32,325 nucleotides of DNA, from positions 1 through 32,325 of the forward strand of contig DRKT01000058.1 in assembly GCA_011053195.1 (NCBI GenBank), given 5' to 3'. Numbering within the stretch: position 1 is the first letter of the stretch; each line of letters opens with the position of its first letter. This DNA comes from Phycisphaerales bacterium. GTDB taxonomy: Bacteria > Planctomycetota > Phycisphaerae > Phycisphaerales > UBA1924. The translations under genes and the position numbers were made by a program. Below are positions 6,269-6,913 of the stretch, in pieces. Under the pieces are notes generated by a model. That model did not search any database, had not been told where the DNA came from, and saw nothing but the letters and a program-made list of their open reading frames with translations.

Positions 6269-6481
6269 ATGCAGGGTGAACAGGAGCGCGGAACCATGCG
6301 AGCCGAAACCTTCCTGGCCGAACTGAACCGATTGCGCCAAGACCTCGACGAGGACCCGACCGACATCGAATGGTTGACCCTTCACCATGTTTTCTGCTTC
6401 ATTTCGTACAAAATGGGCGATTTCCAGGCCTACATCGACGAGCAGGCCGAGCGAGGGGCCTTTGACCAGTTCCAGGGGTGA
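6269..6481 (+). CDS. Small hypothetical protein
   Basis: A 70-residue ORF, or 61 residues if it starts at the second ATG (6296), which has AGGAG about 10 nt upstream and is perhaps the better start. The product is acidic and mostly helical, with a leucine-rich first helix (FLAELNRLRQDLDEDP) and a central aromatic stretch (WLTLHHVFCFISYKMGDF). There is no signal peptide or membrane segment. I do not recognise a family. It stands between tRNA-Ala on the other strand and the structured RNA region. Its codon use resembles neighbouring genes, with mostly G or C in third positions, which supports it being real. Confidence 0.5.
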   Translation: MQGEQERGTMRAETFLAELNRLRQDLDEDPTDIEWLTLHHVFCFISYKMGDFQAYIDEQAERGAFDQFQG

Positions 6482-6763
6482 GTCCACCGATTCGGCACCC
6501 GATCGGCGCCCAACCTCAGACAATCCACGCCAGTTTTTTATCGCAGGTCGGCCGGTTTTTCGATAGACTCCGCATGGGTGTTGGCAGTTCCGCCCGATCG
6601 GCCCGGCGAACCCGGGTGCGCCAAGGCGGGCCGGGCACCCACGAACGGTCCCCATGCGGGGCCGGGCGATGAGCCTTCGGCGACGGCCGAAGGGAAAGGA
6701 ACCCGGCGGCGGCTCGTACTGCCGTGACGGTCGGGGCTGGACTTCGCGAAGGGAGGTGGTCGA

Positions 6764-6802
6764 GTGAAAATATGTGACTGTACGATGGGGCTGTGCCGGT
6801 AA
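6764..6802 (+). CDS. Possible 12-codon leader ORF inside the structured RNA
   Basis: GTG at 6764 is preceded by GGAGGTG (6752-6758), a near-perfect anti-Shine-Dalgarno match, with 5 nt spacing. The reading frame runs 12 codons, MKICDCTMGLCR with three Cys, to TAA at 6800-6802. The stop lies inside the 6788-6835 helix, so translation could affect folding ahead of the terminator. The motif could instead be part of RNA structure only. Confidence 0.3.
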   Translation: MKICDCTMGLCR

Positions 6803-6863
6803 CGGTCAGCCGACGGGCAGCCGTTGGTGCAGCCCTCTCAACTGTTGAAAGACAATTTCTACG

Positions 6864-6894
6864 GCTGCCGGTCCTCTGGATCGGCAGCTTTTTT
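6864..6894 (+). terminator. Intrinsic terminator of the structured RNA
   Basis: GCTGCCGGTCC (6864-6874) pairs with GGATCGGCAGC (6878-6888) through 11 pairs including one G-U, with a 3-nt loop, followed by TTTTTT (6889-6894). It ends one base before an in-frame ATG at 6896 of the dehydratase frame. Confidence 0.88.
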
Positions 6895-6902
6895 CATGCG
6901 CA

Positions 6903-6908
6903 TATCGT
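6903..6908 (+). promoter_or_regulatory. Candidate leaderless -10 element of the dehydratase gene
   Basis: TATCGT lies 5 nt before ATG 6914 and just after the terminator. There is no ribosome binding site for 6914 or 6896. The TANNNT spacing matches several other genes in the window. A promoter here would make the dehydratase gene independent of the structured RNA. Confidence 0.35.
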
Positions 6909-6913
6909 CTGAC

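Follow-up and report, generated by a model that had tools for sequence, protein, structure and literature searches.

Introduction

The dual-function small RNAs (sRNAs) such as SgrS/SgrT and RNAIII/delta-haemolysin are stand-alone transcripts with their own terminator and an internal short open reading frame (ORF), and the function of the encoded peptide is conserved. In the rpsO mRNA coding for S15, a pseudoknot by the Shine-Dalgarno (SD) site can entrap the 30S subunit, in cis control of the ribosomal-protein gene. In cyanobacteria, yfr6 is transcribed separately, with a length of about 250 nt (PMC2864571). In Staphylococcus aureus, extended SD pairing is combined with a GUG start, and G:U is able to replace A:U (PMC13009471). 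The Planctomycetes are listed among the phyla with few SD genes (PMC5397173).

The RNA described here was found on a 32,325-nt stretch of DNA from a Phycisphaerales bacterium (assembly GCA_011053195.1, contig DRKT01000058.1), hereafter referred to as a whole as the window. It differs from the dual-function sRNAs in keeping the ORF but not the peptide, and its ORF makes up one strand of a pseudoknot and of helix P5. As in rpsO, the pseudoknot adjoins the SD site, but there is no downstream gene to be controlled. With tmRNA it has in common the stand-alone organization, a similar size, a pseudoknot, a short ORF, and a single copy per genome, but tmRNA carries a tRNA-like domain and is without SD or start codon. 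The order of a structured RNA and then a short ORF is that of the Downstream-peptide RNA/yfr6; the latter, however, is a glnA-related riboswitch candidate of another phylum with recognisable peptides of 17-100 aa, for which neither an ORF within the conserved fold nor a full complement of the 16S rRNA tail is described. Pairing past the CCUCC core, a GUG start, and tolerance of G:U are shared with the extended SD of S. aureus (PMC13009471), but there ordinary mRNAs gain two extra pairs, whereas the planctomycete RNA is predicted to pair across the whole spacer.

Location and boundaries of the RNA

The extent of the RNA in the window and the features at its ends are as follows.

6574..6894, + strand: whole RNA, about 321 nt (homologues collected via BLAST and covariance models)
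6562..6567, + strand: likely promoter -10 box GATAGA, with transcription presumably starting at about 6574
6847..6859, + strand: P6, a small hairpin preceding the terminator
6864..6894, + strand: intrinsic terminator, stem about 6864-6874/6878-6888 and U-run 6889-6894

The first-pass annotation of this DNA had noticed a structured RNA at 6570-6894 with a strong intrinsic terminator and no signature of a familiar RNA class. The structured RNA proved to be real at about 6574-6894, with a fold z-score of -2.78 against shuffles (-2.31 for 6540-6910), and the terminator is present as a hairpin stem, scanned at 6863-6889, with T-residues behind it. The same annotation, correct in seeing a structured and terminated RNA, had missed the extended SD element, the mini-ORF, the pseudoknot, and the two GACG tetraloops described below. 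Within 200 nt on the 3' side of the mini-ORF stop, a terminator-like hairpin was detected in 133 of 156 relatives as compared with 5 of 94 control regions, and the P6 stem appears in relatives as GGAG/CUCC, GGAA/UUCC, or GAAA/UUUC by eye. A scan for sigma-70-type promoters gave no passing match in the window itself; in relatives, GATANT was seen by eye at the same place as the -10 box, with a TTG-like -35 sequence about 17 nt upstream, and GATANW stands at the promoter position in 86 of 156 relatives.

The search of the window with the Rfam 15 covariance models at gathering score detected tRNAs only and none on the RNA, in agreement with the first impression that no familiar class is involved, and no match reached E < 0.5. 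The best match below gathering score was M23 with 18.8 bits against 41.2 needed and E 0.5, which is at chance level. The RNase P RNA (RF00010) and tmRNA (RF00023) of this genome are located elsewhere, on its contigs C72 and C130 (the latter with 152 bits), respectively, and these two RNAs, together with any other Rfam family, were ruled out as the identity of the locus. Literature searches on small RNAs of planctomycetes, on motifs of structured RNA, and on RNAs with complementarity to the 16S tail yielded no description of this RNA, which is uncatalogued in Rfam. The Rhodopirellula-1 motif, a possible cis-regulator of Proteobacteria and Planctomycetes (Weinberg 2010), is listed without Rfam accession.

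Distribution in Planctomycetota

A BLAST search with the DNA of the RNA gave a match, almost always a single one, in 25 of the 61 genomes searched, including its own. By the covariance model R1, constructed from 69 sequences, the RNA was detected in 177 of 269 Phycisphaerales genomes, covering 102 of 132 genera, and among the genomes listed only two carried two matches. The model R2, made from 52 diverse sequences, identified the RNA in 89 of 342 Planctomycetota genomes of about 30 families, with exactly one match each. In other sampled orders of the class to which the window belongs, the RNA is absent or too diverged. Among 20 of the weaker R2 matches from new families, 19 retained the described elements at least partly, the exception being the locus L278; all these 19 carry both the 16S complement and the ORF, and 13 carry GACG shortly after the stop. 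Both models span the SD region, and thus relatives without SD are under-sampled.

Phyla beyond Planctomycetota were reached by one pattern scan only, in which a pattern derived from the first homologues matched the GTDB contigs in 92 stretches; almost all of these have Planctomycetota titles and one a Cyanobacteria title. The latter, on RHKP01000017.1 of a metagenome-assembled genome (MAG) titled 'Cyanobacteria bacterium CYA', is a typical copy of the RNA, and this MAG is probably mislabelled or a mixed bin. Viral contigs gave no match to a pattern made of the SD and the first part of the ORF, and on this ground a phage or other viral origin was ruled out. Occurrence as a single copy in multiple families, together with a well-supported fold, makes an important role likely.

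Genes adjacent to the RNA

The first-pass annotation had left the choice between a stand-alone transcript and a leader of the next gene. In the window, the next gene, coding for a PALP-family dehydratase (PF00291; 6896-7921), begins right after the terminator, its ATG being one base past the U-run. This arrangement would fit a cis attenuator or leader of this gene, and the same protein cluster is located downstream of the RNA in a few relatives only. The first downstream ORF varies from locus to locus and is oppositely oriented in 29 of the 76 non-redundant loci, in contrast to the conserved co-directional target gene of a leader-peptide attenuator. Such varying and often convergent neighbours indicate that the RNA is free-standing; together with the frequent terminator-like hairpin noted above, they favour the stand-alone transcript over the leader, and a leader function becomes highly improbable. 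On the same ground, control of the dehydratase gene by a riboswitch or attenuator was ruled out.

Directly upstream of the RNA is a 61-aa ORF (6296-6481) without Pfam match, and many Phycisphaerales relatives have related proteins coded in this upstream position.

Secondary structure supported by compensatory changes

The fold was examined by alignment with 91 full-length relatives. The helices in the window are as follows.

6575-6580/6636-6641, + strand: P1, linking the 5' end of the RNA with the junction at P2; 90% paired, with pair types C-G, G-C, U-A, and U-G
6646-6648/6662-6664, + strand: P2; outer pairs 93% paired, inner part of variable length
6674-6681/6686-6693, + strand: P3 hairpin with GACG tetraloop 6682-6685; 99% of cells paired
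6702-6707/6730-6735 and 6709-6713/6721-6725, + strand: P4; 96% and 85% paired, with compensatory changes
6714-6720, + strand: apical loop of P4; 6726-6729, GACG in its internal loop
6788-6797/6826-6835, + strand: P5, including the final ORF codons; 91% paired, double changes at 8 of 9 pairs
6801-6805/6821-6825 and 6809-6811/6816-6818, + strand: inward extension of P5, closing the second GACG tetraloop 6812-6815

In the alignment A2, 88.5% of cells were paired and 30 of 33 pairs were changed on both sides. The covariation score was 0.468, as compared with 0.231 (sd 0.008) after shuffling and no more than 0.138 when the partners were slid. The P3 hairpin shows as many as five pair types at a single position, with double changes at all eight pairs, and the pairs adjoining the second GACG loop are 95-97% paired. 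The window itself carries a compensatory change in P1, where UGGGUG/CACCCA replaces the UCGCGG/CCGCGA of most relatives. Since G:U cells (175) outnumber A:C cells (33), the plus strand is taken as the RNA; a minus-strand RNA with a mimic of the 16S tail was ruled out by this asymmetry and by the direction of the terminator.

Two helices proposed from the window sequence, for which a check of covariation had been suggested, did not survive the comparison. The helix 6570-6578/6651-6659, perfect in the window, is paired in 38% of cells among the 91 relatives, and on the sequence evidence is to be regarded as a coincidence of the window. The helix 6661-6666/6702-6707 is 79% paired, but this reflects sequence conservation plus G-C/G-U changes only, and it would be at best an uncovarying alternative. 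The anatomy of the RNA as a whole can be accepted from the comparison as almost certain.

Extended SD element complementary to the 16S rRNA tail

Between P4 and P5, a stretch of 14 nt was identified as a complement of the 16S rRNA 3' end.

6750..6763, + strand: extended SD element, AGGGAGGUGGUCGA in the window (consensus AAGGAGGUGAUCCA)

The element matches, as a complement, the entire 3' tail of the 16S rRNA of the same genome, GGCUGGAUCACCUCCUUUCU; the window copy forms 12 contiguous pairs, including two G:U, and has one mismatch close to the start codon. At the element positions 7-13, transitions that keep a wobble pair were found in 43 of 397 cases and those that break the pair in 0 of 312 (Fisher p = 8e-12), as counted with 104 sequences from the covariance models, sequences from the pattern scan being left out. 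This bias points to selection for 16S pairing along the element as far as the start codon. In 12 genomes, the 13-mer AGGAGGTGATCCA was almost unique; among 15 sites checked outside the RNA in nine genomes, 10 lay antisense to the 16S gene and five were scattered, with 0-2 per genome. Because few SD genes are reported for Planctomycetes (PMC5397173), a full-length SD across the phylum was unexpected.

The pairing-type selection on the 14-nt complement could also be taken as the sign of an rRNA-directed RNA, a partner in maturation or quality control that pairs with the 3' end of mature or precursor 16S rRNA and uses the ORF only secondarily. A second stretch before the terminator, CUCCUACGGC, is consistent with this reading in one clade, being complementary to GCCGUAGGAG of 16S rRNA just upstream of helix 45 (the window has UUUCUACGGC at 6856-6865). 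This type of 16S complementarity gave 25 matches against 2 in shuffles, and TACGGC was found in 34 of 157 against 0 of 111, but it can equally be explained by a UACG loop or by the P6 hairpin. A third candidate, CGGGCGRUGWG against the 16S decoding region, was ruled out with two mismatches in the commonest form. For an rRNA-directed RNA, moreover, the start codon, the frame, and the stop would be superfluous, and we consider this reading rather improbable.

Conserved mini-ORF with a variable peptide

The extended SD element is immediately followed by a short ORF.

6764..6802, + strand: mini-ORF, GTG AAA ATA TGT GAC TGT ACG ATG GGG CTG TGC CGG TAA (MKICDCTMGLCR*)

In 158 non-redundant sequences, the start codon is GTG in 143, TTG in nine, and ATG in six, at a distance of 13-18 nt from the first base of the 16S complement, and the frame is closed by a stop after 10-33 codons, with 12 or 13 as the usual length. 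An ORF with both start and stop was present in 93 of 94 model matches and in 19 of 20 of the weakest matches from new families. The offset of the P5 motif from the start is a multiple of three in 83 of 86 sequences, over distances of 18 to 90, and the pattern scan, which permitted 7-16 nt, returned only 9 or 12 among the matches listed. Each of the three stop codons occurs, in most cases 7-12 nt ahead of the second GACG loop.

In the commonest group, the predicted peptide is recognisable as MxxxDCTKGLRR, with D5 in 61, C6 in 64, G9 in 70, and L10 in 68 of 76 sequences, while all four ACN codons are used for Thr at codon 7. Taken together with the near-universal and in-frame ORF, this would be expected for a plain or dual-function mRNA of a functional 12-aa micro-peptide, with the RNA structure regulating its translation. 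The conserved residues, however, are those encoded by the nucleotides of the pseudoknot (GACUGUAC) and of P5 (GGGCUGCGC). Furthermore, other families carry unrelated peptides such as MMIVRGSIRRWVR, VGSPNRRPSS, VSNLSQDLKRIHDRTLRR, and a Cys-rich one of 33 aa, while the SD, the fold, and the GACG loops are retained. As judged by this comparison, the frame of the ORF is conserved, and the predicted peptide differs from family to family without conservation. The gene arrangement and the conservation of the ORF fit the layout of dual-function sRNAs, with a putative transcript and putative translation, but the conserved functional peptide of these sRNAs has no counterpart among the unrelated peptides, and a micro-peptide message therefore appears unlikely.

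Two related lineages, L144 and L241, carry, instead of the usual 12 codons, a much longer Cys-rich mini-ORF of 32-33 codons, e.g., MIELCTPRPGGKCCCGDSCDGNCCCGRKRIGLR.

Pseudoknot between the P4 loop and the mini-ORF

The apical loop of P4 is complementary to the middle of the mini-ORF.

6714-6719/6780-6785, + strand: pseudoknot, UCGUAC of the P4 apical loop with GUACGA of the mini-ORF

The partners differ among relatives, as represented by ACUGUC/GACAGU (L025), AAUCACG/CGUGGUU (L136), and UGGACUU/AAGUCCG (L153), and the pairing was examined by a permutation test. The fit of each loop to its own ORF was 12.61 as compared with 11.12 (sd 0.21) after permutation, and none of 300 permutations reached this value. 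Since relatedness inflates permutation tests, thinned sets were employed; with a set of 73 sequences, the fit was 12.17 against 10.51 (sd 0.27), with 0 of 1000 permutations. The pseudoknot uses approximately codons 4-8 of the ORF, but this placement is approximate, and its position within the ORF changes from species to species.

The 5' domain is complex and conserved at many positions, and together with the pseudoknot and the short ORF downstream it is also what would be expected if a small molecule were sensed by a riboswitch-like 5' domain, with the pseudoknot controlling the tiny ORF; the Downstream-peptide/yfr6 RNAs of cyanobacteria, about 250 nt with a short ORF, give a precedent (PMC2864571). 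Conservation is highest, however, in the 16S complement and the GACG loops and not in a candidate ligand pocket; P1 and P2 are seemingly absent, by eye, in some distant lineages, and the peptide is unconserved across families. A riboswitch-like sensor thus has a low probability.

Possible mode of action as a ribosome-operated RNA

The conserved core of the RNA is an interface to the ribosome, that is, the full complement of the 16S tail, a start, and a stop. Such an interface without a conserved peptide suggests that translation takes place as a signal and not for the product. From the sequence comparison, we slightly favour the view that the RNA is a stand-alone switch or trap operated by the ribosome, being itself a miniature message. 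Ribosome loading and translation of the mini-ORF are likely, as we infer from the comparison.

In such a ribosome-operated RNA, the landing site for the 16S tail would be open in the folded state, with the sequence downstream locked in the pseudoknot and P5, and the 30S subunit would dock on the exposed, near-full-length SD element. The pseudoknot, which the docked ribosome would then meet at its leading edge, might either hold the ribosome or melt upon initiation and translation. Translation of the 12 codons would open both the pseudoknot and P5, and termination would set both strands free again. Two states could thereby alternate, one ribosome-free and folded, perhaps via contact between the GACG loops, and the other ribosome-occupied and open. 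With its fully paired spacer, leaving no single-stranded nucleotide before the start codon, the element could be a hindrance rather than a help to initiation.

The RNA would then sense or trap ribosomes with a free anti-SD tail. Candidate outputs in trans include sequestration of 30S subunits, presentation of the GACG hairpins to a partner, and a change in stability of the RNA. A more specific form of this proposal, which we put forward tentatively and with less confidence than the switch or trap itself, is a test message or state sensor of ribosomes, in which new or idle 30S subunits whose anti-SD tail is free would be captured at an almost fully complementary site, the 12-codon product would be irrelevant, and the fold would read out success or failure. 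If this is the case, a phylum with few SD genes would make dedicated use of the anti-SD. The RNA bears on the question of why planctomycetes retain the anti-SD sequence though few genes are reported to use it.

The two GACG tetraloops, the hairpins of which flank the mini-ORF, are candidates for the contact in the folded state. The P3 loop is GNCG in 138 and GACG in 127 of 158 sequences, as compared with about 4% GACG in shuffles, and the loop of the hairpin after the stop is GNCG in 141 and GACG in 135 of 158, against about 3%. In retroviral RNAs, GACG tetraloops have a part in the dimerisation of RNA with RNA (PMC516450), and by analogy it is a reasonable idea that the two loops may touch each other. 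GACG-like sequences are also located in the P4 internal loop (6726-6729) and at the P1/P2 junction (6640-6648; CGACGACCG in relatives), amounting to up to four per RNA.
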